This document shows positions 31,495-44,376 of a stretch of 64,000 nucleotides of DNA, piece after piece. Under the pieces are notes generated by a model. That model saw only the letters and a list, made by a program, of their open reading frames with translations. It ran no database searches and was not told where the DNA came from. The DNA lies in NCBI GenBank assembly GCA_902761055.1, contig CACWIS010000001.1:150158-214157 (forward strand), given 5' to 3'. The stretch comes from Oscillospiraceae bacterium (lineage in GTDB: Bacteria; Bacillota; Clostridia; Oscillospirales; Oscillospiraceae). How positions within the stretch are numbered: position 1 is the stretch's first letter; every line of letters starts with the position of its first letter. The position numbers and the translations under genes were made by a program.

Positions 31495-32841
31495 TTATGC
31501 GAGGTGTCCCTTGGACGCGATGACCGCGATCACGTCGTCAACATATTTCTCGCAGATCTCCTTCGTCCCGGCCTCAACCATGACGCGGATGACCGGCTCG
31601 GTCCCGCTCTCGCGCACAAGGATGCGGCCCGTGTCGCCGAGTTCTTCGCCGACCTTTCTGACCGCCGCCTGCACGTCGGGGTCGTTCTGCGCCTCAGGCT
31701 TGGATTTGACGCGGACGTTCTTGAGCACCTGCGGGTAAAACACGACGGGCGCGGCGAGTTCGCTCATCGGCTTCTCTCTGTCGAGCATGACCTCCATCAG
31801 CTTCAGGCTCGTCAGGATGCCGTCGCCGGTCGTGGCATGCTCGGTAAAGATCACGTGGCCGGACTGCTCGCCGCCGATCTTGTGGCCGTTCTGGACCATA
31901 TTCTCATAGACGTATTTGTCGCCGACCTTGGTCTTCTCGTAGCCGACGCCCACGGCGTCGAGCGCCTTGTAAAGGCCGAAGTTCGACATGACCGTCGTGA
32001 CGACCTTGTTGTTGGCGAGCTTGCCGTGCTCCTTCATGTAAAGGCCGCAGATATAGATCGTATGGTCGCCGGTCACGACATTGCCCTTTTCGTCGACGCA
32101 GATGCAGCGGTCGGCGTCGCCGTCATAGGCAAAGCCGACGTCCAGGCCCTTGTCGACGACGAATCTCTGCAGATGCTCGATATGCGTGCTGCCGCAATTG
32201 GTGTTGATGTTATAGCCGTCCGGCTCCGCGCTCATGACGTAGGTCTTTGCGCCGAGCGCGTCGAAGACGCTCTTGGCGATCTGCCAGGCGGCGCCGTTGG
32301 CGACGTCGAGACCGACCTTGACGTCCTTGAAGCTGAAGCGGGAGAGCGAGATCAGGTAGCCGATGTAGCGGTTGCGGCCCGCAACGTAGTCGACGGTGCG
32401 GCCGATCTGCTCGCGCTCGGCAAGCGGCAGCTCGAGCTTGCCGTCGATGTAGTCCTCGATGCCAAGCAGCGTCTCCTCGTCCATCTTCTCGCCGTTGTTG
32501 TTGACGATCTTGATGCCGTTGTCGTAGAAGGGGTTGTGCGAGGCGGAGATCATGATGCCGCAGTCGAAATCGTCCACGCGCGCGATATAGGACACGGAGG
32601 GCGTCGTCGTGACGTGCATGATGTAGGCGTCCGCGCCCGAGGCCATCAGGCCCGCGCAGAGCGCGTATTCGAACATATAGCTCGAGCGGCGGGTGTCCTT
32701 GCCGATGACGACCTTGGCTTTTTTATTCAGCCTTGCGCCGTAGTACCAGCCGAGATAGCGGCCGATCTTGATGGCGTGCTCATAGTTGAGATCCTTGTTG
32801 GCTTCGCCGCGGAAGCCGTCGGTGCCGAAGTATTTACCCAT
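31495..32841 (-). CDS. glmM: Phosphoglucosamine mutase
   Basis: A 448-residue GlmM, which converts glucosamine-6-phosphate to glucosamine-1-phosphate for UDP-GlcNAc and peptidoglycan synthesis. The phosphoserine loop MISASHNPFYDNGIK (about 97), the metal loop DGDADRC (about 241) and the phosphate-binding RESGTEPVIRVMVE (about 412) are intact. It follows nagB with a one-base gap and is the last gene of the ribozyme-controlled operon. Confidence 0.96.
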   Translation of the reverse strand: MGKYFGTDGFRGEANKDLNYEHAIKIGRYLGWYYGARLNKKAKVVIGKDTRRSSYMFEYALCAGLMASGADAYIMHVTTTPSVSYIARVDDFDCGIMISASHNPFYDNGIKIVNNNGEKMDEETLLGIEDYIDGKLELPLAEREQIGRTVDYVAGRNRYIGYLISLSRFSFKDVKVGLDVANGAAWQIAKSVFDALGAKTYVMSAEPDGYNINTNCGSTHIEHLQRFVVDKGLDVGFAYDGDADRCICVDEKGNVVTGDHTIYICGLYMKEHGKLANNKVVTTVMSNFGLYKALDAVGVGYEKTKVGDKYVYENMVQNGHKIGGEQSGHVIFTEHATTGDGILTSLKLMEVMLDREKPMSELAAPVVFYPQVLKNVRVKSKPEAQNDPDVQAAVRKVGEELGDTGRILVRESGTEPVIRVMVEAGTKEICEKYVDDVIAVIASKGHLA

Positions 32842-32842
32842 A

Positions 32843-33634
32843 TTACAGTCTCTCTTTCCTTTCGATATCCAGGAAATATTTGTACGTGTCGACGGTCAGC
32901 TCGCCGCAGGCGGCCTCGTCGCAGGCGATGATCGCGCCGTTGTGCATCTGCAGGGCGCTGCAGGTCCACTTGTGGCTGACGTTGCCCTCGACCGTGGCGG
33001 CAAGCGCGCGGGCCTTGTTGTGGCCGCTGATGAGCACGAGGACTTCCCTGGAGTCCGTGACCGTGCCGATGCCGACGGAGAGCGCCTGGGCGGGGACCTT
33101 CTCAGGATCGCCGCCGAAGAAGCGGCTGTTGACGATGCGCGTGTCGGTCGTGAGATCGCGCACGCCGGTGCGGGACGTCAGCGAGGTGAAGGGCTCGTTG
33201 AAGGCCAGGTGGCCGTCCACGCCGATGCCGCCCATGAAGAGGTCGATGCCGCCGTAGGAGGCGATCTTTTCCTCATAGCGGGCGCACTCGCCCTCCGGAT
33301 CGTCGGTCATGCCGTTGAGGATGTTGATGTTCTCCGGCTTCATGTCCACGAGATGATCGAAGAAAGTGTCGTGCATGAAGTACCAGTAGCTCTGGTCGTG
33401 CTCGCGCGGCAGGCCGAGATACTCGTCCATGTTGAAGGTCACGACGTTGGCGAAGGAGAGCTCGCCCGCCTTGTTCATGCGGATCAGCTCCTTGTAAACG
33501 CCGATCGGGGACGAGCCGGTCGGCAGGCCGAGAACGAAGGGCCTGTCTTCTTTGTGGGCCCTGATCTTCGCGGCGATGTAAGCGGCCGCCCATTTGCTCA
33601 TTTTATCGTAGTTGTCCTGAATAATGACTCTCAT
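32843..33634 (-). CDS. nagB: Glucosamine-6-phosphate deaminase/isomerase
   Basis: A 263-residue NagB that interconverts glucosamine-6-phosphate with fructose-6-phosphate and ammonia. LGLPTGSSPIGVYKEL binds phosphate, TFNMDEYLGL carries the catalytic Asp, and MGGIGVDGHLAFNEP the second acidic site. ATG 33634 with AAGGAG nine bases upstream is preferred to an earlier in-frame start. Placement in one operon with glmM behind a glmS ribozyme suggests a biosynthetic rather than catabolic role; nagA is absent. Confidence 0.94.
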   Translation of the reverse strand: MRVIIQDNYDKMSKWAAAYIAAKIRAHKEDRPFVLGLPTGSSPIGVYKELIRMNKAGELSFANVVTFNMDEYLGLPREHDQSYWYFMHDTFFDHLVDMKPENINILNGMTDDPEGECARYEEKIASYGGIDLFMGGIGVDGHLAFNEPFTSLTSRTGVRDLTTDTRIVNSRFFGGDPEKVPAQALSVGIGTVTDSREVLVLISGHNKARALAATVEGNVSHKWTCSALQMHNGAIIACDEAACGELTVDTYKYFLDIERKERL

Positions 33635-33653: not shown

Positions 33654-34310
33654 TCAGATTTTTTCAACGATCACGCCGTTGTCTTTGAAAATGCTGTTCT
33701 CCGGGACGACGCCGCGAACGCAGGAGGTCGGATAGATATTGCTGTGGCGGCCGACGACCGTGCCGGGATTGCACACGCTGTTGCAGCCCACTTCCACATA
33801 GTCGCCGAGCATCGCGCCGAACTTCTTGATGCCGGTCTCGATCTGCTCGGTGCCGTTGTGGACGACGACGAGCTTCTTGTCGGACTTGACGTTCGAGGTG
33901 ATGGAGCCCGCGCCCATGTGCGAATAGTAGCCGAGGATCGAATCGCCGACGTAGTTGTAATGCGGGGTCTGGACGTGGTCGAAAAGGATCACGTTCTTCA
34001 GCTCCACGCTGTTGCCGACGACGCAGTTCGCGCCGACGAGCGCCGAGCCGCGGATGAACGCGCAGTGCCGCACCTCGGTCTCCGGGCCGATGATGCAGGG
34101 CGCGCCGAGATAAGCGCTCGGGAAGACCTTGGCGGTCTTGTGCACCCAGACGTGCTCGGCGACTTCTTCATAGTCCTCGCCCAGCGTGGGGCCGAGCTGC
34201 AGGATGAACTCCTTGATCCCCTTGAGCGCTTCCCAGGGGTAAGTGAACTGCAAAAGATAATCTTTTGCAAGCGTATGGTCGAGATCGTACAGATCTTTTA
34301 TCGTATACAT
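33654..34310 (-). CDS. Left-handed beta-helix acyltransferase resembling the GlmU C-terminal domain
   Basis: A 218-residue hexapeptide-repeat protein. NYVGDSILGYYSHMGAGSIT resembles the acetyltransferase active-site region of GlmU (HxxYxGD...GAGxIT), although the uridylyltransferase half is missing. A helical N-terminus (1-65) precedes the repeats. It is the first gene after the glmS ribozyme and lies 19 bases before nagB. A likely job is acetylation of glucosamine-1-phosphate, or nucleotide-sugar transfer in the same pathway. GGAAAGG precedes ATG 34310. Confidence 0.8.
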   Translation of the reverse strand: MYTIKDLYDLDHTLAKDYLLQFTYPWEALKGIKEFILQLGPTLGEDYEEVAEHVWVHKTAKVFPSAYLGAPCIIGPETEVRHCAFIRGSALVGANCVVGNSVELKNVILFDHVQTPHYNYVGDSILGYYSHMGAGSITSNVKSDKKLVVVHNGTEQIETGIKKFGAMLGDYVEVGCNSVCNPGTVVGRHSNIYPTSCVRGVVPENSIFKDNGVIVEKI

Positions 34311-34354
34311 CGTTGCTTTCCTTTCCGTAAGGATTCGGCAAAAAGCCGTATCGG

Positions 34355-34500
34355 CGTCAAGAGAGGCTCTGTTACAGTGTTCATTCTGCTTTTTCTTCTC
34401 TCTCTGACGGCCCGCCGATCCTGGCCGTGACAGCATCCGCCGAGTCTTTCGACAACTGTCAGTCCTCGTCAACCGCTTCGGGTCCCGGCGCTAATAACGC
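34355..34500 (-). ncRNA. glmS ribozyme (GlcN6P-activated self-cleaving riboswitch)
   Basis: On the minus strand the leader contains the conserved core TTATTA/GCGCC (cleavage expected between 34492 and 34491), GTTGACGAGG, GTTGTCGAAAG and CTCGGCGGATG. The helix TGACAG/CTGTCA sits exactly as in known glmS ribozymes, followed by a CGGCC/GGCCG helix and a distal AGAGAG/CTCTCT helix. Glucosamine-6-phosphate is the known cofactor; cleavage leaves a 5'-hydroxyl mRNA that is degraded. It lies between a strong promoter and the acyltransferase-nagB-glmM operon. No glmS gene is present. Confidence 0.93.
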
Positions 34501-34580
34501 TCCCTGCTCCTTTCCGGACCGTTATTTTACTTCTCTGAACGGGTCCGCATCAGAGATCGGGCCCTTTCAAATTCTAATGT

Positions 34581-34609
34581 ATTATACTCTATATCCTGCT
34601 GAAAATCAA
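34581..34609 (-). promoter_or_regulatory. Promoter of the ribozyme-controlled amino-sugar operon
   Basis: TTGATT (34609-34604), 17-base spacer and perfect TATAAT (34586-34581). It predicts a leader of about 265 nt, of which the ribozyme is the main part. Confidence 0.85.
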
Positions 34610-34672
34610 TGAAAAACTGTTTGGAACCACAAGGCCTTGTGTCAGCGCGATCCGTGCCGGCGCATAATCTGT

Positions 34673-34701
34673 TTGTAATCGGCGGCGGGACGTGGTATGC
34701 T
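34673..34701 (+). promoter_or_regulatory. Promoter of the ROK-like kinase gene
   Basis: TTGTAA (34673-34678), 17-base spacer and TATGCT (34696-34701) with extended TGG. Confidence 0.6.
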
Positions 34702-34726
34702 TGAAAAAAAAACAGGAGGCTGTTTC

Positions 34727-36313
34727 ATGATAAAGAACCGGATCCACCTCGGTGAAAGCGGCGCTTCGCTCTGGCTGCCGGAGCTGCGTGAGAGCTTCGC
34801 TCGCTCTGCGGACGTCGAACGGATCGTCGTCCGTCTCTCGGGCCGCCACTACGGCGTGCGCGAGCGCGAGCTGTTTCTGCCGACCGCGCAAGACGGCGCA
34901 GAACGGGATTTCCTGCTCCGCTATCTCTCGGCAAACATATATAATCTTCTCTCCGCCTACAGTGCGTCGGAGCTTTGCGTCTTCTGCGGCGGCGGCACGG
35001 CGGAGCTCGTCCGCGCGCTCCCTCCCCTCTTTGAAGGCGGCGGGCTCGGAAAGGTGAGCAGCGTTGCGCTCCGCATATACGGCGGGCTCGCGTTCCGCAT
35101 TTCTCCGCTCGATGAATACGCTCCGACGGAAAACGCGGCGTCCGCGGTCTCCCTCGATCTTCCGCGGCGTCTGCGCGGCCGTGTCCGCGCGTCGGCAGAA
35201 AAAAGCTGCGTCGGGATCGACGTCGGCGGAAGCGATATCAAGCTGGCCGTCTCCTGCCGCGGCAGCCTGTTGTACACAAAAGAGTATGACTGGAATCCCG
35301 CCGCCTCCCCGACCGCCGACGGGATCACGGAGCCCATCCTCGCGCTGGTGCGCGAGGCGGCCGGACGGATCGCCCGTGAAGGCGGCACGCTCGACGCCGT
35401 GGGGATCAGCTTCCCCGACGTCGTCATCGGCGACCGTATCGTCGGCGGCGAGACGCCCAAGACGAAAGGCATGCGGGAAAACGCGGCGCTGGACTATGAG
35501 ACGGAGTTCGCAAAGCTGCGGGAGCTGCGCGCCGCGATCCTGCCTCTCTGCGCGCCGGGCGCCGCCGTACGTCTCACGAACGACGGCAACATGTCCGCCT
35601 ATACCGCGGCGGTCGAGCTGGCCGAAGGCGGCGCGGACGAAGCGATCCGCGGCGGGGTCGTCGCGCACTCGCTCGGTACGGATCTCGGTACCGGCTGGCT
35701 GCTCTCCGACGGTACGATCCCCGCGATCCCGCTGGAGCTTTACGATCTGCTGCTCGATCTGGGCGATCTGCCCGCCGCCGCACTCCCTCCGGCGGATCTG
35801 CGGAGCACGCGCAACGAGAACTCCGGCATGCCCGGCGTACGGCGCTATCTCGGCCAGGCCGCGGCCTATCGTCTTGCCTGGACGCTGGACCCCTCGCTCC
35901 TTGACGGATTCGTCCGCCGCGAGGGAGAACTGCTGACGATCCCGACCGCGCCCGAGGATCTGCGCAAGCCCTGTCTGGAGCATCTCATGCGTCTTGCCGC
36001 CGAGGGAGACGGATCCGCGGAGGAGATCTTCCGCCGGATCGGGAAAAACCTCTCTGTCGTCGCGCAGGAAATGAACTGGCTTTTCGGTCAGACGCCGCCG
36101 AGCCGTTTTCTTTTCGGCCGCTTCGTCAAATCCCGCCGCTGCTTCGAGCTGCTCTGCGAGGGCTTCGGCGCGGCCGGGACCGGGATCCGCCTGATCGCCG
36201 CTGACGACGATCTTGCCAACACGCCGCTGATGCGGCAGCTCGCGCAGATGCCCGGCGTGAGCGTCGCCCAGTTCGCCCAGGCGATCGGCGCGATCTATTA
36301 CGCCGCCGAATAA
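34727..36313 (+). CDS. Oversized ROK/hexokinase-fold sugar kinase-like protein
   Basis: A 528-residue protein, while ROK kinases are usually about 300. Residues 1-160 form an extra N-terminal domain I do not recognise. The actin-like ATPase core starts with CVGIDVGGSDIKLAV (about 162), has VRLTNDGNMSAYTAA (where ROK enzymes have NDANAAA) and AHSLGTDLGTGWLL as the second phosphate loop. The ROK zinc motif is not seen. It may phosphorylate a sugar or act as a sensor. ATG 34727 follows ACAGGAGGC. It is a single-gene unit, divergent from the amino-sugar operon. Confidence 0.7.
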   Translation: MIKNRIHLGESGASLWLPELRESFARSADVERIVVRLSGRHYGVRERELFLPTAQDGAERDFLLRYLSANIYNLLSAYSASELCVFCGGGTAELVRALPPLFEGGGLGKVSSVALRIYGGLAFRISPLDEYAPTENAASAVSLDLPRRLRGRVRASAEKSCVGIDVGGSDIKLAVSCRGSLLYTKEYDWNPAASPTADGITEPILALVREAAGRIAREGGTLDAVGISFPDVVIGDRIVGGETPKTKGMRENAALDYETEFAKLRELRAAILPLCAPGAAVRLTNDGNMSAYTAAVELAEGGADEAIRGGVVAHSLGTDLGTGWLLSDGTIPAIPLELYDLLLDLGDLPAAALPPADLRSTRNENSGMPGVRRYLGQAAAYRLAWTLDPSLLDGFVRREGELLTIPTAPEDLRKPCLEHLMRLAAEGDGSAEEIFRRIGKNLSVVAQEMNWLFGQTPPSRFLFGRFVKSRRCFELLCEGFGAAGTGIRLIAADDDLANTPLMRQLAQMPGVSVAQFAQAIGAIYYAAE

Positions 36314-36396: not shown

Positions 36397-39300
36397 TCAG
36401 CCGCCGACCTCCGGCGTGCCCGTGCCGCTGTGCTCCACCCACTTTGCATACAGCGTGGTATTGCTGTTGACAACGTAGTCTTCCGCATCCAGATAGCCTT
36501 CACAGACCACCTGCGTTCCTTCAGGGTCCAGACACCAGCCGGCAAAGTCTTTCCCTTCCTGCGTCAGCGAGAAGAACTCGAGATAACGATCATAGACCGA
36601 GGCGAGGTTCTTTCCCTTCGGAATATCGATCGAGAATGAAGCAGAAGTATAGGCATAGCCGGGCTCCTCGTATACGAACTGTCCTCCGTTGGCATCCAGC
36701 GTGAGCGTACAGCCGGGTACGCGCTTGGCATACAGCGTCATATCTTTCGTGGGAACGAAGCCGTTGCGGATCGGGCTTCCGCTGAATTTTGAGTTGTTAT
36801 ACCATTCCGTGGTATAGCCGTTCGCACCCCAATAGACCTCCGGGAAATAGACGCTGTTGTCGCGCAGTACCTTCATCCAATCAGTTGACGGTCCTTCGTC
36901 GTAATAAAGGTGCCCATTGTTCTTCGCTGCGTTTAAGGTCAGCTTCCAGGCGCTCGCCCACTTGGCGTAGAGCGTCATGTCGCTTTCGGGGACGAAGTCA
37001 TAGAGATCGTATTCACCCGCGATCTGATCACCCGTGCCGGCTGCGTCCAGATACCAGCCGACGAGCGCCGTATGCTGGTCGTGATGCTCGACAGCGCCGG
37101 TGAAGCGGAGCGCTTCCCCTACCGGGACAAGAATCGTCTCGAAAGTCATGCTGTCAACGCCGTACAGATACCCGCCGTTCGCTTCGATCTTGACCGTATA
37201 AACCGCTGTTTTGACGACCGACAGGGATACTGTGCCGTTGAAGGATTCATTCCAATTGGCGACCGAGATCTTATACGTTTCCCCCGCTTCCAGATAGCAG
37301 ATCAGACGGGCCGGGTCTTCACCATACTGCCAGGCGTCGACGTACATTTCATAACTGAAATCTTCAATGGCAAGCCAAAACCCACTCGCCTGATCCGGGC
37401 GAATCACATAATATCCGCTCTCCGCAGGAGTGAAGATCGCAAAGTCCGCCATACCGCCGTTGACCACGATGTTGTTGCTCCCGACAGTGAGGTCCAGTGC
37501 GCGTTCCCACTTCGCATACAGGGTCATGCTGCTCTCGATCGGCGTATTGTCAAGGTCGAAGGCTTCGCCCGTGCAGTCCGGGTCCTCATACCAGCCGCGG
37601 AACAGGAGCGTCGGATCGCAGGGCCCGATATCAGGGTATTCGGGAGCGGTCGTTCCCTTTGGGATCCGCTGAGTCAGCAGCTCTTCGCCAGATTCGTAGA
37701 AGTAACCGCCGTTGGCGTCAAAGGTGAGATCAACGCTCTCTACTCGGATCGCGGTCAACTCCATGTCATGTGTCGGCACATCCTCGTCGGGGTCGAATAT
37801 CTCACCGGTCGCTTCGTCAATCCAGCCGATGCAAATATAATCCCCATCATAGTAGACCTCGGGGCAATACATGCCGAACGTGCGGCCTTTCGGGACATAG
37901 ACCTCCACCGGTTCGTCTGCCTCATTGCCGTTCAGATGTCCGCCGCCCGGCGCATTGAAAGTGATCTTCCAACCGTCGACCCACTTGGCATAGAGATTCA
38001 GATTTGAGCTCACATAGACCATGTCAAGGTAGGAGCACACCAGAGTTTTGCAAGAGCTCTCCTTATACCAGCCTGCGAAAGCGCGTCCGTTGTTTTCAAA
38101 GCCGTAGCTGTGGCCCCAGAAATAATCGCCTTCGTCGAACTGGAACACGAGGACGGGAGACAATTCCCCGCCGTATGCCGTGATACCGCCGTTGCCGTGC
38201 AGCGTGACGACATATCTCATCTCTCCGCCGTAATCGGGAAGGAGCGACCACTTTGCATACAGCGTCTTATTGCCGGTGGAGCCTTTCGCGATTTCGTAAA
38301 CCGGCTTTTTGAATTTTGCGTCGAGGAACCAGCCCTCAAACACATAGCCTTCTCTCCACGGGGTCTCCAATTCAAAGGTTTCGTCCTCGATGGTATAGCT
38401 CTGCTTCCACGGCGTTTCGGCAGGACCGACGTTCTTGTAGGTCAGCGTGTAGCGGGCAGGCGACCAGATCGCATACAGCGTCACGGTCTTTTCGTTCTCC
38501 GCCGTGAGGTTGCCGACCTTCTCCTTATTCCCGTACACCTTGTAATTGACAGGATCGTACCATCCAGCAAACAAATAGCCGGTACGCTTAAAGCCATTCG
38601 AGTTCAAGGTATACCGTGAACCGTTCACGCACCCTTTCATTGCCTTTGTTTTTCCGGAAGTTGCGTCGTTTCCGTTGAAATTAATCGTGTACGTGACCTT
38701 GCCGCTCCATTTTGCGTACAACGTCTTGTTGCCGGTCGATCCCTCCGGAATGACCCACTGATCTCCCATATTTTCAACGGGATTCTTGAACTTGGAATCC
38801 AGATACCAGCCTTCGAACTTGTATCCGGGGCGCTGCGGCGTCGGAAGGTACAAGGGGGCCTCGATCGTGTAGGTCGTGGCATAATCATCACCAAGTTCAC
38901 CCAGCGCCGGCGTGACGCCCTTGTACGTGATCTTGTACTCGATCGGCGCCCAAACGGCGTACAGCGACGTGTCTTCCGTAATCGACACATTTTTCTGCTT
39001 GTTATTATAGTCTTTGCCATCACCAAGTACTTTGCTCCAGCCGAGGAACTTGTAGCCCGGGTGCGCGAAGCTGTTTGCACTTAGTGTATAGCCTTTGCCG
39101 ACCTTCAGTCCTTCCTGGTTCTTCACGCGGCTTTCGCCGGTCAGCGGATCGATGGCGACAGCGCCGGTTGCGGGATCAACATCATAGAAGCTGATCCTGT
39201 AACTGGGCGGATCCACCTCCTTCCACCGAGCGTACAGCGTCTTATTGCCGGTCGATCCCTCCGGAATGATCCCGTTTTCAACGGGTTTTTTGAACTTGGA

Positions 39301-42300
39301 ATCAAGATACCAGCCGTTAAAGATCCAACCGTCTCGCACCAACGGCTCAAGTTCAATCCGCACGTGCACGTTATAGGTCTGAGGATTGGGATTGTTATCG
39401 CCAGACACCACATTCTTATACGTGATCGTGTACTCGTTCATAGACCAGACAGCGTACAACGTCACCGTCTCTCCGACGCCGGTCGCATAGTTCGAGTGCT
39501 TGGACTTGTTCTTGTACTCGACCTCTCCGTCGGGCGTCGTGCTCCAGCCGAGGAACTTGTAGCCCGCGCGCGTAAACTTGACCGCGGGCAGCTTGTAGCT
39601 CTTGCCGCATGCCAGGTTGAGCATGTCGTCCATGCTCCCCGTTCCGCCGTTCGGATCGAACCGGACATTGTAACGGTGCGCCACCCACTGTGCGTACAGT
39701 GTGATCGTCTTGCCCGAGCCGGTAGTAAGATTCTCAATGGTCTCCCCGTCGCCAAAGAAGGTCCCTTTGCCATTGGCCTTGGTGTTCCAGCCGGCGAAGG
39801 TATAGCCGTCGCGCCAGTACGTGTTGTACGGGATCGTGTAGGGCGAGTCATAGCCGCAGTAGCCGCCGTCGCCCGACATATCTCCCTGGCCGCCGTTCGC
39901 GTTGAACACGATCCGGTAGCGGATCGGCGTCCAGATCGCATACAGGCGCACCTCGTCGACGCAGGTCGTCGGATCGGCCGGGTCGCAATTCAGATTCTTA
40001 ACCTTTTCGGCGTTTCGATACAGAATGTCGCCGATCTCGGGGTAAGGATCTTTGCTCCAGCCCGCGAAGAGATAGCCCGACTTTGTAAAGGCATTGGCTG
40101 TCAGCGCCGTCGTCTTGTCAAAGGTCATGGTCTGGCTCTTCATGCTGCCCTTGCCGCCGTTGGCGTCGAAGACGACCTTGTATTTCATCGGCGCCCACTG
40201 CGCATAGAGATGCACGACCGCGCCGTCTGTCTTGCTGAGGCTCTTCACCGTTGCGCCGACGGAATACGACGTGCCCTTGCCGTTGGCCATGGTATTCCAG
40301 TTTTTCAGCGTGTAGCCGGGACGCGCGGCGGGGAAATAGTCAAGCTTAAAGGTCTTGCCGACGCCGACCGAGAAGTTCACTCCCTCATCCTGCGCGCTGG
40401 CGTGGAAGCGGATCGTATAGCTGTTCTCTACCCAGTTGGCGTACAGATTCACGACCTTATAGTCGCTGGGGGGATCGGGATCGAGAACAACATGGCTGTC
40501 GTTTACACGCGTGACCGCGCTGCCGTCGCCGTTCTCATTCGTATACCAGCCGCCGAAGCGAGAATCCGCTTTCTGCGGCTCCGGGATCCTGGAAATATCG
40601 CCGCTGGTGGTGTAATAAGGCTGCTCAGGCGCTATCACAAAGGCGCCGCCGTTGGCGTCGAAGTAGATCTCATAGGGCACCTGCGTCTTTGCATACAGCG
40701 TCATGTCTCCGTCCGGCGTCAGTCCGGAAACGTCGACGTACTGTGTGAAGGCGGCATCCGCGTACCAGCCGAGGATCGAGACGGGCATTCCTTTATCGTT
40801 CAGGATCACCGTTGTGGGCAGATCACGGTTGCTGAGCCTCGCACCATACGGAAGAGAACGCGTCAAAACAGAGGTATTATATCCCGCAAAAACGCCGCCG
40901 CTTACTTCAAACGTGATCACGCTGCCGTACGTCCAGCCGGCATACAGTTCCGCGGGAGAGGTATAATCGAGCCGCTGGCCGTAGGCAAAGACAAGCTCTG
41001 TGCATTGCGGATCCGCATACCAACCGGTGAACGCCAGGCCATCCGGATGTGTGAAGCCGACCGTCTCGGCATAGAAATGGTCTTCCTCTGTAAGTGTAAG
41101 AGACAGGGATTCTGATATATCCCCGTTGCCGTAGTCGATGAATCCGCCGTTACCGTGGTAGAGGGTGTTCCATGCCCTGGCGTATTTGACATAGAATGTC
41201 ACGTCGCCGGTGGGGATATAGGTGCTGAAATCTACTCTCTGCCCGCTGCAGTCAGGCGTAAGATACCAATACCAGCCTACCGTGTTCGAATCATTGACGC
41301 AGGAAGGGACTCGTTTTGTGATCGGACGGCCTTTCGCGCTGTAGAAAGAATAGGTCGTCTGATCGCCGTAGTTGGAGATGCGTCCGCCGTTCGCATCGAA
41401 CGTGATCCTCCAGCCGTCCGTCACCCACTTTGCGTAGACGGTCAGGTCTTCGGTGATCGTAATCAGGCCGACCGGCTGTGTACAATCCGCATCGTAATAC
41501 CAGCCCGCGAATGCGGCTCTCTCGTCATTGTCGTTTTCGATACGCGAGACGAGATAGCTGTATCTGTCGGATCCCGGGTCCACGACGGCGTTTTCGTTGA
41601 TATGCAACACCTCGGTCGTGTGCTCGGGATCGTCATAGAAATATCCGCCGTTGGCGTCGACGGTCAGCTCGTACTGTCTGATCTGCTTTGCATAAAAGGT
41701 CGTTTCGGCTGTGATCGGCAAAGCGCGGACCTGAGCCAGGGTGGCCGGGATGCATTCCGGCGTCATGTACCATTCCGTGAAATACTGATGCTCGGGGTCC
41801 GGATCATTGCTGAAGAGCACCGGCATGTTCCTAACCCGCGAGCCGCTGCGCACATACTGGCTCGCGCTCGTTCCGCCGCCTTCAAAAGTGCCGCAGTCGT
41901 TGGCGTCGAAGGTGACAAGAATGCCCGTTTCCCAGCCGGCGTACAGCGTCACGGCTGAATTGACGGTAAGGCCGTGATCCTCGTCGGCGGCAAATTCGGT
42001 GCAGTCCGGATCGTAATACCATTTGCCGCTGAAGACCAGGCTCGAATTACCGGCTCTCTGAACCACCATCTCCGAATCGGGAAAGGATGTTCCGATGGGA
42101 ATCTGATAACTGCGCGTCGTATACTCCGGATCAGGCCCGAAGAATCCGCCGTTGGCGTTCAGCGTGATCCTTGCGGCGGGGACCGTGTGTCCGTAGAGCG
42201 TGACGTCGCTCTGCGGCAAATTGCTCCACGGATAAATCGGCGCCCCTTCATATTGGTCGTTCAGATACCAGTCGTTTTCAAAAATGGAGTTTTCGTCATC

Positions 42301-44376
42301 CGGGACGACACACGGAAAAGCAACCGCATCGCCGGGGTTGAATTCGACGGAATATACGCTCTGGCTGTTTTCCGAGAAAGTGCCGCCCTCAATAATGAAG
42401 GTAATCGTATTGGGCAAACTCCAGCCGGCATACAGGTTCACCAGCTTGATGTTTTCGGGGCTGTCAGGATCGACCATGCTGTCGTTCAGCTCCGTGACCG
42501 CGCTGCCGGAGCACGCCGCATCGGTATACCAGCCGTTGAAGCGCCGGCTGGGATCGCTGTTCTCCGGCGCCGGGCTTCTGGAGATATCGCCGCTGGTGGC
42601 GTAGACATCATACTCGGTATCCGAGGGATCGTCGAAGAAGTATCCGCCCTGGGCGTCGAAGTGGATCTTATAGGGCTTGACCATCTCAGCGTACAGCGTA
42701 AATGCGCTCTCCGGCTTGAAATTGTTCGTATTGATACTCACGGTGCAAGCCGGATCCGCATACCAGCCGAGGATCTGAAGAGGCAAGTAAATGTCGTCCA
42801 TGAACGCGAACTGAGGCAAAAGCTGCGGGTTGAGCTTCTGGCCTTTGGGGACGTAAAGCGTCCTCGTGCCCTGATTCTCGGTGCCGGCAAAATAGCCTCC
42901 GCTGACGTTGAGCGTGATCTCCCAGCCTTCGGCCCACTTGGCGTATACGGTCTTGTCCTCGGTGATCGTGATGCTCCCGGCCGGCTGGGTGAATGCCCGG
43001 TCAAAATACCAGCCCGCGAAAGCCAAGCCCTGTACGGGAGCTGTGATCTCTGAAAGGATGTAACTGAAGGGCTGATCGTTCAGGTTCACGCTTCCGCCTT
43101 CGGTAAAATGCCAGACCTCGGTCGTGTTCGTCGGATCGTCATAGAAATACCCGCCGTTGGCGTCGAGAGTCAGCGTGTACTGCAGGACCAGCTTGGCATA
43201 ATAGGTCGTTTCCTCGGTGATCGGCACACCCCGGACATTGATTTGCGCTCCGGTGCATTCCGGCGTAAGATACCATTCGGTAAAAGATGTATGGTCCGGA
43301 TCGGTGCTGACGATCGCGGGAACGTTTCTCGGCGCAGAACCGCTGCGCACATAGCAGGTCGCGGTCGTGCCGCCGCCTGCAAAGCTTCCGCAGCCGTTGG
43401 CGTCAAAGGTGACCAGAATGCCCGTTTCCCAGCCGGCGTACAGCGTCACGTCCGAATTGACGGTAAGGCCGTGATTCTCGTCGGCGGCAAACTCGGTGCA
43501 GTCAGGATCGTAATACCATTTGCCGCTGAACACCGTGCCAGGGGTATCGCTCACAGGAGCCTCTCCCTCCGAGACGACCCGGAACACATCCCCCACAGCC
43601 ACATCATAGCTGTAGGTCTTATGCTCGCTGCCTTCCCAAAAGTGTCCTTGCGTGTTGGCGTTCAGCGTGATCGTCGCAGCGGGAAGCGTGCGGCCGTAAA
43701 AGGTGGTATCCTCCTCCGGCTCGTAATACCAGGGATCCACAGCCTGGCCGCTGTAGTCGGCGTTCAGGTACCAGTTCCCGTCGAATATGCTGCCGTCATC
43801 GGCGTTTATGGCCGGAGTCTCAATGCTCTCTCCGGGCTCGACTTCGACGGTATATACGCTTTGCTCGTTTTCCGAAAAGACGCCGCCTTCGATGATGAAT
43901 GTGATCGTATAGGAATCGGGTCCGAGATTGGCCTCAGATGACGCGATCCCCGTTTCCTCTTCGATCGACAGTTCTTCCGAAACTTCCGGATCGTCCGGGT
44001 TCTCCGGATCATCCGGGTTTTCCGGATCGTCCGGGGTCTCCGGTTCGTCCGGGTTTTCCGGATCGTCCGGGGTCTCCGGATCGTCCGGGGTTTCCGGATC
44101 GTCCGGGACTTCCGGATCGTCCGGGGTCTCCGGTTCGTCCGGGGTCTCCGGATCGTCCGGGGTCTCCGGTTCGTCCGGGGTCTCCGGTTCGTCCGGGGTC
44201 TCCGGTTCGTCCGGGGTCTCCGGTTCGTCCGGGACTTCCGGATCCGTCGGCTCGGCCGGAGTTTCGGTCTGGGTGTTCACGTCCTCGTCCGCATAGACGC
44301 CGATCGCCATCGCGGGCATCAGAGAGAGCACCATGCACATGCAGAGCAGAAGGGCTATGAGCTTCTTCAGTTTCAT
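36397..44376 (-). CDS. Giant secreted InlB-type B-repeat (Flg_new) protein
   Basis: A 2659-residue exported protein. A signal peptide (1-29, ending near VYA) is followed by an acidic low-complexity linker of PETPDEPE/DDPE units (about 36-135) and then about 28 Listeria-Bacteroides/InlB B-repeats, each with GWY...LYAKW. Near residue 2290 a non-repeat beta-sandwich (LTVGSNNIVVNGGMADFAIF, PPC-like) interrupts the array. The C-terminus ends GTGTPEVGG: no LPXTG, SLH or membrane anchor is seen. B-repeats in known proteins are stalks for adhesion or cell-wall contact. It has its own promoter. Confidence 0.9.
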   Translation of the reverse strand: MKLKKLIALLLCMCMVLSLMPAMAIGVYADEDVNTQTETPAEPTDPEVPDEPETPDEPETPDEPETPDEPETPDDPETPDEPETPDDPEVPDDPETPDDPETPDDPENPDEPETPDDPENPDDPENPDDPEVSEELSIEEETGIASSEANLGPDSYTITFIIEGGVFSENEQSVYTVEVEPGESIETPAINADDGSIFDGNWYLNADYSGQAVDPWYYEPEEDTTFYGRTLPAATITLNANTQGHFWEGSEHKTYSYDVAVGDVFRVVSEGEAPVSDTPGTVFSGKWYYDPDCTEFAADENHGLTVNSDVTLYAGWETGILVTFDANGCGSFAGGGTTATCYVRSGSAPRNVPAIVSTDPDHTSFTEWYLTPECTGAQINVRGVPITEETTYYAKLVLQYTLTLDANGGYFYDDPTNTTEVWHFTEGGSVNLNDQPFSYILSEITAPVQGLAFAGWYFDRAFTQPAGSITITEDKTVYAKWAEGWEITLNVSGGYFAGTENQGTRTLYVPKGQKLNPQLLPQFAFMDDIYLPLQILGWYADPACTVSINTNNFKPESAFTLYAEMVKPYKIHFDAQGGYFFDDPSDTEYDVYATSGDISRSPAPENSDPSRRFNGWYTDAACSGSAVTELNDSMVDPDSPENIKLVNLYAGWSLPNTITFIIEGGTFSENSQSVYSVEFNPGDAVAFPCVVPDDENSIFENDWYLNDQYEGAPIYPWSNLPQSDVTLYGHTVPAARITLNANGGFFGPDPEYTTRSYQIPIGTSFPDSEMVVQRAGNSSLVFSGKWYYDPDCTEFAADEDHGLTVNSAVTLYAGWETGILVTFDANDCGTFEGGGTSASQYVRSGSRVRNMPVLFSNDPDPEHQYFTEWYMTPECIPATLAQVRALPITAETTFYAKQIRQYELTVDANGGYFYDDPEHTTEVLHINENAVVDPGSDRYSYLVSRIENDNDERAAFAGWYYDADCTQPVGLITITEDLTVYAKWVTDGWRITFDANGGRISNYGDQTTYSFYSAKGRPITKRVPSCVNDSNTVGWYWYLTPDCSGQRVDFSTYIPTGDVTFYVKYARAWNTLYHGNGGFIDYGNGDISESLSLTLTEEDHFYAETVGFTHPDGLAFTGWYADPQCTELVFAYGQRLDYTSPAELYAGWTYGSVITFEVSGGVFAGYNTSVLTRSLPYGARLSNRDLPTTVILNDKGMPVSILGWYADAAFTQYVDVSGLTPDGDMTLYAKTQVPYEIYFDANGGAFVIAPEQPYYTTSGDISRIPEPQKADSRFGGWYTNENGDGSAVTRVNDSHVVLDPDPPSDYKVVNLYANWVENSYTIRFHASAQDEGVNFSVGVGKTFKLDYFPAARPGYTLKNWNTMANGKGTSYSVGATVKSLSKTDGAVVHLYAQWAPMKYKVVFDANGGKGSMKSQTMTFDKTTALTANAFTKSGYLFAGWSKDPYPEIGDILYRNAEKVKNLNCDPADPTTCVDEVRLYAIWTPIRYRIVFNANGGQGDMSGDGGYCGYDSPYTIPYNTYWRDGYTFAGWNTKANGKGTFFGDGETIENLTTGSGKTITLYAQWVAHRYNVRFDPNGGTGSMDDMLNLACGKSYKLPAVKFTRAGYKFLGWSTTPDGEVEYKNKSKHSNYATGVGETVTLYAVWSMNEYTITYKNVVSGDNNPNPQTYNVHVRIELEPLVRDGWIFNGWYLDSKFKKPVENGIIPEGSTGNKTLYARWKEVDPPSYRISFYDVDPATGAVAIDPLTGESRVKNQEGLKVGKGYTLSANSFAHPGYKFLGWSKVLGDGKDYNNKQKNVSITEDTSLYAVWAPIEYKITYKGVTPALGELGDDYATTYTIEAPLYLPTPQRPGYKFEGWYLDSKFKNPVENMGDQWVIPEGSTGNKTLYAKWSGKVTYTINFNGNDATSGKTKAMKGCVNGSRYTLNSNGFKRTGYLFAGWYDPVNYKVYGNKEKVGNLTAENEKTVTLYAIWSPARYTLTYKNVGPAETPWKQSYTIEDETFELETPWREGYVFEGWFLDAKFKKPVYEIAKGSTGNKTLYAKWSLLPDYGGEMRYVVTLHGNGGITAYGGELSPVLVFQFDEGDYFWGHSYGFENNGRAFAGWYKESSCKTLVCSYLDMVYVSSNLNLYAKWVDGWKITFNAPGGGHLNGNEADEPVEVYVPKGRTFGMYCPEVYYDGDYICIGWIDEATGEIFDPDEDVPTHDMELTAIRVESVDLTFDANGGYFYESGEELLTQRIPKGTTAPEYPDIGPCDPTLLFRGWYEDPDCTGEAFDLDNTPIESSMTLYAKWERALDLTVGSNNIVVNGGMADFAIFTPAESGYYVIRPDQASGFWLAIEDFSYEMYVDAWQYGEDPARLICYLEAGETYKISVANWNESFNGTVSLSVVKTAVYTVKIEANGGYLYGVDSMTFETILVPVGEALRFTGAVEHHDQHTALVGWYLDAAGTGDQIAGEYDLYDFVPESDMTLYAKWASAWKLTLNAAKNNGHLYYDEGPSTDWMKVLRDNSVYFPEVYWGANGYTTEWYNNSKFSGSPIRNGFVPTKDMTLYAKRVPGCTLTLDANGGQFVYEEPGYAYTSASFSIDIPKGKNLASVYDRYLEFFSLTQEGKDFAGWCLDPEGTQVVCEGYLDAEDYVVNSNTTLYAKWVEHSGTGTPEVGG
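41100..43930 (-). repeat. Second-order duplication inside the B-repeat protein
   Basis: Two multi-repeat blocks, about 42410-43930 and 41100-42410, match in the same order (TFIIEGG...FSENxQSVY, FSGKWYYDPDCTEFAADE, LYAGWETGILVTFDAN, ANGGYFYDDP). The matching points are offset by about 1.5 kb, or 500 residues. This is duplication of a whole group of repeats rather than single units. Confidence 0.75.
43990..44240 (-). repeat. 18-base tandem repeats encoding the PETPD(E/D) linker
   Basis: About fourteen near-identical 18-base units (TCCGG-A/T-TCGTCCGGGG-type on the plus strand) with only third-base and Glu/Asp changes. Copy number could change by slippage in steps of six residues without breaking the frame. 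Confidence 0.9.

Follow-up and report, generated by a model that had tools for sequence, protein, structure and literature searches.

A peripheral sub-type of the glmS ribozyme heads nagB operons in Clostridia

The glmS ribozyme is a textbook case of one RNA class bound to one gene. Of the 463 glmS ribozymes in the 2011 survey of McCown et al., reportedly only two were located outside glmS mRNAs, and these exceptions could be nagB-linked. What, then, does a ribozyme of this class do at the head of an operon that holds nagB and glmM, and lacks glmS? The question is raised by a 64,000-nucleotide stretch of Oscillospiraceae DNA, analysed as a whole and called here the window, in which the following features were recognized.

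34609-34581, minus strand: promoter-like site TTGATT-17-TATAAT, from a consensus scan only (10/12 matches)
34503-34350, minus strand: glmS ribozyme, RF00234, 61.1 bits (E 1.3e-11; gathering score 37), model positions 1-167 (Rfam cmscan of the whole window)
34378-34385, minus strand: L4 apical loop of the ribozyme, AAUGAACA in place of a GNRA tetraloop (columns 221-228 of alignment A2)
33654-34310, minus strand: acetyltransferase of the hexapeptide type (partial match to TIGR03992, and Pfam Hexapep)
32843-33634, minus strand: nagB, glucosamine-6-phosphate deaminase family (TIGR00502, 372.9 bits, cut-off 236.9)
31495-32841, minus strand: glmM, phosphoglucosamine mutase (TIGR01455, 535 bits, cut-off 447.55)

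The curated threshold of RF00234 is passed by the window ribozyme, in agreement with the original prediction of a glmS ribozyme in a minus-strand leader. The same prediction placed the leader between a promoter and a GlmU-like acyltransferase-nagB-glmM operon devoid of glmS, a layout borne out by the promoter-like site, found about 77 nt upstream of the ribozyme match, and by the profile matches of the three ORFs, which correspond to acetyltransferase, nagB and glmM. Nineteen bases separate the acetyltransferase gene from nagB, a single base nagB from glmM; DUF1015 and XdhC-type genes, the 3' neighbours, are probably outside the operon. No terminator-like site was found in a scan of 34250-34760, and so none between the ribozyme and the first gene. 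Cleavage is predicted within AGCGCC, presumably between 34492 (A) and 34491 (G). The surroundings of the operon include a divergent ORF of 538 aa (34697-36313, plus strand), unmatched in both Pfam and NCBIfam at 0.001, with a VGIDVGGSDIKLAV stretch that in our judgment resembles the motif of ROK or ASKHA sugar kinases, and a secreted-looking repeat protein of 2659 aa (36397-44376, minus strand), featuring PDEPETPDEPE runs and many GWYxD..LYAKW-like repeats.

Sequence conservation in the leader was monitored in alignment A2, made without structure and including 72 nagB-linked ribozymes (71 distinct), the window's among them. Four of the 66 + 10 candidates were excluded: L177; L215, which duplicates L075; and L078 and L079, where the P4 part of the Rfam match strays from the real helix. 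Core columns are invariant or nearly so across the 72 ribozymes, and AGCGCC, GACGAGG and TCGG(C)GG, which we take to be the core motifs of the glmS ribozyme, are also visible in alignment A1. With the paired structure taken from the Rfam consensus, double changes occur in 18 of the 29 pairs of P1-P4, 96.6% of the cells are paired and 206 are double-changed; when the 3' partners are slid by 1-3 columns as a control, 29.7-50.7% of the cells are paired, and at most 44 double-changed.

The periphery of the ribozyme is distinctive. By alignment column, L4 is an A-rich loop of 8 nt (AAUCAACA and close variants) in 72/72 nagB-linked ribozymes, and a GNRA loop in 35/35 ribozymes of the family located before glmS or glmM. 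A folding script run on the 72 returned the octamer in 65, GNRA in none, other loops or no loop in 7. The P1 arm is short, 14-18 nt being found from column 18 to 77 in 70/72. The GNRA L4 is a trait of RF00234 that the nagB-linked ribozymes do not share; the trait is peripheral, and its lack marks a sub-type rather than an exclusion from the class. The glmS ribozyme of B. subtilis and T. tengcongensis (RF00234) and the window's have in common the core, the P1-P4 layout, the A-rich internal loop in P4 and the leader position. They differ because the window's, rather than preceding glmS, heads acetyltransferase-nagB-glmM, and has an A-rich octaloop as L4 and a short P1 arm. According to passages of PMC11602151, the L4 GNRA loop docks into P1 in B. 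subtilis, and both sides are sensitive to mutation; the octaloop should by analogy dock into P1 differently, or not at all.

Among rows excluded from A2, the octaloop is present in L078, L079 and L215, missing in L177 (4630-4876), a nagB-linked ribozyme in which no GNRA is evident in L4 either. In a survey of 70 ribozymes of the class, sorted by pattern, 59 carry GNRA (including L327, which matches both patterns), three the octaloop (L312, L315 and L317), seven neither loop, and one has no core. The octaloop-type ribozyme L315, in G702, resides 156 nt before a glmS gene, the product of which is 49% identical to the GlmS of the window's genome; L315 is a possible intermediate or the possible result of an exchange. 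The sub-type is therefore not strictly bound to nagB, and the notion that octaloop and nagB always go together is weakened by both L315 and L177. We conclude that the leader contains a true ribozyme of the glmS class, which belongs to a peripheral sub-type and has a regular target besides glmS.

The distribution of the pairing was analyzed at three levels. In 300 genomes of the family, surveyed with strict filters and few candidates scored per genome, 45 have a glmS ribozyme (one match each, 44 above the gathering score). As judged from neighbouring ORFs, 34 of these are located before glmS, 10 before nagB, and one, in G036, before glmM; in the window, one of the ten nagB-linked cases, the first gene is the acetyltransferase. 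A contig scan with the window NagB detected at least 571 coding relatives in at least 593 stretches. The best 80 were kept, a sample of near relatives of the window NagB which is informative on these only, and were analyzed with a covariance model built from the 45 family ribozymes. A ribozyme was found upstream of nagB, on the same strand, in 66 of these 80 closest loci (the best 80 of at least 571), with scores of 64.8-108.2 bits, and was not found in the other 14 of the best 80; a weak match in L161 (15.3 bits) is outside the 66. Rfam's own glmS model passes in 16/16 sampled relatives. A fuzzy regular expression for the core matched 70/80 loci but gave 47 hits in shuffled sequence, and covariance models were used instead. 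With L159 assigned to genome G178 and L215 to genome G289, the search of related genomes for a ribozyme next to nagB, suggested by the original prediction, yielded at least 74 distinct genomes, mostly draft MAGs, a count which, as the others, takes no account of shared ancestry.

A class-wide draw revealed glmS ribozymes in 150 of 391 genomes. Seventy places were classified (the 30 best and 40 weaker of those listed), the 30 best being scored as glmS whenever glmS was matched at any position of the 3-kb locus: 66 places are associated with glmS, one with nagB-acetyltransferase-glmM, one with acetyltransferase-glmM, and two with neither. Class-wide, glmS is still the rule for the ribozyme. Two glmS ribozyme matches, L324 (G512) and L343 (G433), have neither glmS nor nagB downstream within the stretch fetched.

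The ribozyme constantly heads the cluster, although the order of the genes behind it varies. In the 66 ribozyme-bearing loci among the best 80, the first of the genes sought is nagB in 47, acetyltransferase in 17 and glmM in 2. Acetyltransferase and/or glmM are also in view downstream in 59/66, in several orders, and nagB is alone in view in 7/66. In the family's ten nagB-linked cases, acetyltransferase and glmM are next to nagB in five, and nagB is alone in the stretch seen in the other five, once at a contig end. Genes for acetyltransferase or glmM are still found near nagB in 8 of the 14 ribozyme-less loci, 9 when a 26% glmM match in L218 is included. The glmS gene lies further downstream on the same strand in 4/66 loci (L163, L169, L172 and L191), and ends just upstream of the ribozyme in L199, L200 and L209; the cluster glmS in at least 4 of the 42 glmS-bearing genomes could share the switch. 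In G036 (locus L077) a GNRA-type ribozyme heads glmM, acetyltransferase and a distant NagB-like gene (34%), as if the pathway had captured the ribozyme on a separate occasion. In G685 the ribozyme is located before acetyltransferase-glmM, with nagB not in view.

The acetyltransferase matches TIGR03992 with 141.1 bits over profile positions 212-393, below the full-length cut-off of 292.1, and the PDB entries 5z09 and 2ggo with E values of about 4e-22. By homology, it is a probable glucosamine-1-phosphate N-acetyltransferase. It corresponds to the acetyltransferase half only of the full-length bifunctional GlmU, and matches the C-terminal half of the archaeal enzyme (TIGR03992; PDB 2ggo, 5z09), from which it differs in being a stand-alone protein of 218 aa without the nucleotidyltransferase half. 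The acetyltransferase half of GlmU gave no match at 1e-40 in 10/10 ribozyme-nagB members of the family (in four only the uridyltransferase half was found, in six no GlmU match at 1e-40), and was matched in 16/21 ribozyme-glmS genomes. The same half is also missing in 13/16 family genomes with neither ribozyme-nagB nor ribozyme-glmS, and its lack, once regarded as strong support for an aminating NagB, was accordingly downgraded to weak support.

The window NagB passes the TIGR00502 cut-off; its matches among solved structures are NagB chains listed under the name glucosamine-6-phosphate deaminase. It contains D141, H143 and E148, and these residues and R172 (numbers presumably those of the E. 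coli protein, D141, H143 and E148 being in our understanding the catalytic residues) are kept in 76/76 ribozyme-linked NagBs. R158 and K160, which we take to be residues of an allosteric GlcNAc6P site that some NagBs lack, are present in the five solved NagB chains (PDB) compared. At these positions G and R are found in 76/76 ribozyme-linked NagBs, and in 17/17 other NagBs of the clade as well, and R158G/K160R was dropped as a marker of ribozyme-linked NagB, being clade-wide. In a quick tree of 109 rows, from which one match of at most 200 aa and one copy of the window's gene were omitted, ribozyme-linked NagBs are confined to one clade of 93 rows, 76 ribozyme-linked and 17 not; long branches adjoin the clade, and finer points of the tree were not used.

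Does NagB replace GlmS, as originally predicted? For the window's genome, a 1.89-Mb draft which is 80.7% complete, replacement is not supported. The supposed absence of glmS had to be dropped, an intact gene (TIGR01135, 770.7 bits) being located at C21:11703-13535, on a contig other than that of the operon. The gene has no ribozyme, that of the window being the single glmS ribozyme found across the 80.7%-complete draft. A nagA gene (272.7 bits) resides on contig C16, again away from the operon. The combination that would have told against the prediction, a glmS with its own ribozyme and a nagB linked to nagA, was thus not found. Replacement fits some of the relatives: glmS was not found in 11 of the 59 distinct ribozyme-nagB genomes (thresholds E 0.001 or 1e-60), three of which have a stated completeness of 100, 94 and 65%. 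In five of the 11 (G004, G131, G312, G328 and G345) nagA was also not found at E 1e-40. G131, scored 100% complete, and G004, scored 94%, both keep ribozyme-nagB. The G004 ribozyme passes Rfam (42.4 bits); that of G131 scores 33.6 bits, under the gathering score, although it has both core and octaloop; the low score is probably due to a long insert that separates the P4 with the octaloop from the rest.

Where glmS is retained, it often lies among nitrogen genes. The window's genome has, in this order, asnB (oppositely oriented), an amt gene fused to a PII domain, glmS, and the gene for glutamine synthetase III.

L034 6864-8549, window's own genome: ammonium transporter-PII fusion, directly upstream of glmS

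A nitrogen gene (at least one of GSIII, Amt, GltB, GltD, GlnA and AsnB) was found within 10.5 kb of glmS in 16/21 ribozyme-nagB genomes (group A) vs. 2/20 ribozyme-glmS genomes of the family, a difference (Fisher 2.5e-5) to be read as descriptive only, as shared ancestry and contig extent are uncorrected. With family members only the figures are 6/7 vs. 2/20 (Fisher 6e-4), descriptive as well, the gene set having been chosen from open clustering of the same group A and B loci. Names were assigned to the families from the NCBIfam and Pfam matches of a single member per family, the six reference proteins all coming from group A loci. Group A is made up by 21 neighbourhoods, 7 from family members and 14 from the 42 glmS-bearing genomes, picked roughly by glmS score. 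It omits G319 (identical to G178), G322 and G327; glmS and nagB are in the same cluster in G322 and G327, as in the retained G347, and the proportion is 16/23 if G322 and G327 are counted as negatives. Elsewhere, nitrogen genes are found by glmS in 3/8 genomes with glmS and no ribozyme, in G036 (1/1), and in 0/2 ribozyme-glmS genomes that carry an additional glmS copy without a ribozyme, when this copy is considered. G109 and G264, which belong to the window's genus and have a nagB of the clade with no ribozyme found, also have glmS by nitrogen genes; the relocation of glmS may therefore be older than, or separate from, the move of the ribozyme. The placement is most naturally read as putting glmS, in these genomes, under a putative control by nitrogen limitation. 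No other known RNA was found at gathering score in eight glmS neighbourhoods of ribozyme-nagB genomes. An ANTAR-domain regulator is encoded beside type I glutamine synthetase in L223 (8310-8897), with matches in L219, L224, L227, L262 and L267; the protein is a candidate regulator of the glmS clusters.

Indirect evidence points to NagB working in the aminating direction. GlcN6P feedback makes sense only for an enzyme that produces GlcN6P or commits it to a pathway, and this part of the original prediction, that product feedback suits an aminating NagB, is supported; the pairing recurs in at least 74 distinct genomes. The switch is on nagB and not on glmS, since a single ribozyme was found in 49 of the 50 ribozyme-nagB genomes searched, though 42/50 have glmS (E 1e-60); at most 44 candidates per genome were scored in this search, with strict filters. 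The fiftieth genome, G321, holds L162 and a second match, L346, on contig C106 (35.1 bits, under the gathering score), which is octaloop-like, broken off in P4, near the contig end and beside an ORF that we take to encode an IS3-type transposase. Amination is further favoured by the 11/59 ribozyme-nagB genomes in which glmS was not found, five of them with nagA not found either, and by the frequent location of the retained glmS next to nitrogen genes. A match to nagA was detected in 27/59 ribozyme-nagB genomes (none at E 1e-40 in 32/59), and in these 27 NagB could also serve catabolism. Passages of PMC4281351 describe NagB as catabolic in most organisms, amination usually requiring high substrate; they report that the Giardia enzyme is efficient in forming GlcN6P from Fru6P and ammonia, that GlcNAc6P does not modify it, and that Entamoeba is said to be without GlcN6P synthase. 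In passages of PMC12385614, yeast engineered with Pyrococcus GlmD makes glucosamine with ammonium. The anabolic NagB of Giardia lamblia and the window's are both NagB-family proteins, and would have in common the synthesis of GlcN6P from Fru6P and ammonia, which for the window's is a proposal; the window's, unlike the former, is bacterial, has deaminase-filed matches and is encoded in an operon under a ribozyme.

The reading which we regard as likely is that NagB aminates under GlcN6P feedback and forms an ammonia-fed entry to UDP-GlcNAc, GlmS being the route used at nitrogen limitation, lost in some genomes; our confidence in this mechanism was lowered by the GlmU recount and by the sub-threshold ribozyme of G131. 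NagB would convert fructose-6-phosphate and ammonia to GlcN6P, GlmM would convert GlcN6P to GlcN1P, and the stand-alone acetyltransferase GlcN1P to GlcNAc1P. When abundant, GlcN6P would make the ribozyme cleave the operon mRNA, the fragment with a 5'-OH would be degraded by RNase J, and the operon would fall silent, an end-product feedback on the ammonia-fed entry reaction. GlmS, where kept, would probably take over at ammonia scarcity, as GS-GOGAT backs up GDH, and is assigned this role because it is usually ribozyme-free and often in a nitrogen-assimilation cluster. In the GDH/GS-GOGAT pair too a direct ammonia route stands beside a glutamine-dependent one, but here the nitrogen is that of amino sugars, and the likeness is one of analogy, not homology. 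The broader proposal, that a large set of Clostridia from gut and rumen has a two-track entry to UDP-GlcNAc, with octaloop-ribozyme NagB using ammonia and a ribozyme-free GlmS in a nitrogen-limitation cluster using glutamine, some members relying on NagB only for peptidoglycan, is in our estimate barely more probable than its negation, and was lowered on the same two grounds.

Other explanations must be weighed against these. NagB might be catabolic, or work both ways, the ribozyme acting on glmM and acetyltransferase and trimming UDP-GlcNAc synthesis as a whole, while NagB is a mere passenger or serves as a relief valve. The nagA match in 27/59 ribozyme-nagB genomes would suit such an arrangement, as would the loci in which acetyltransferase (17/66) or glmM (2/66) comes first, the G036 ribozyme before glmM-acetyltransferase with the distant NagB-like gene (34%) further on, and G685, where acetyltransferase-glmM follows the ribozyme and nagB is not in view. 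Yet nagB comes first in 47/66 loci and is alone in view in 7, G131 and G004 keep ribozyme-nagB while glmS and nagA were not found there, and for a deaminase less NagB at high GlcN6P would amount to positive feedback; we hold this explanation to be unlikely. A different role for the ribozyme, that of an ON switch, in which cleavage at high GlcN6P would make a catabolic nagB mRNA more stable or release it, matches the usual catabolic role of NagB. In Bacillus, however, RNase J degrades the cleaved glmS mRNA, and RNase J was found in 21/21 genomes searched (20 ribozyme-nagB genomes and G036). Degradation of mRNA after glmS ribozyme cleavage is also described in passages of PMC11477304 and PMC10043782, and the ribozyme is therefore taken as an OFF switch. 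With the partner genes biosynthetic, and no terminator-like site found between the window ribozyme and the first gene, an ON switch appears very improbable. Least credible is a non-functional ribozyme, orphaned by rearrangement. Orphaned riboswitches are discussed in passages of PMC2258182, but the occurrence in at least 74 distinct genomes, the conserved core, the 206 double-changed cells and the shuffled gene order speak for selection. An aminating NagB under GlcN6P feedback is thus retained, and the operon is best read as a counterpart of the glmS feedback circuit in which GlmS is exchanged for an enzyme that uses ammonia.

No published description of a nagB-linked glmS ribozyme was found in the titles, abstract openings and passages covered by a literature search; both terms occur in PMC10668854 and PMC7967978, whose passages do not describe the pairing. 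If a second target is broad and conserved, the class would be shown to sense GlcN6P on behalf of any enzyme that produces it, and would gain a structural sub-type devoid of the GNRA loop, the docking of which into P1 is important in B. subtilis. The ribozyme-nagB pairing would let nature itself test in which direction NagB, normally filed as catabolic, works; an annotation that labels these genes deaminases and reports some of the genomes as lacking glmS would mislead. The pairing suggests that many gut and rumen Clostridia can make the first amino sugar of the cell wall directly from ammonia.
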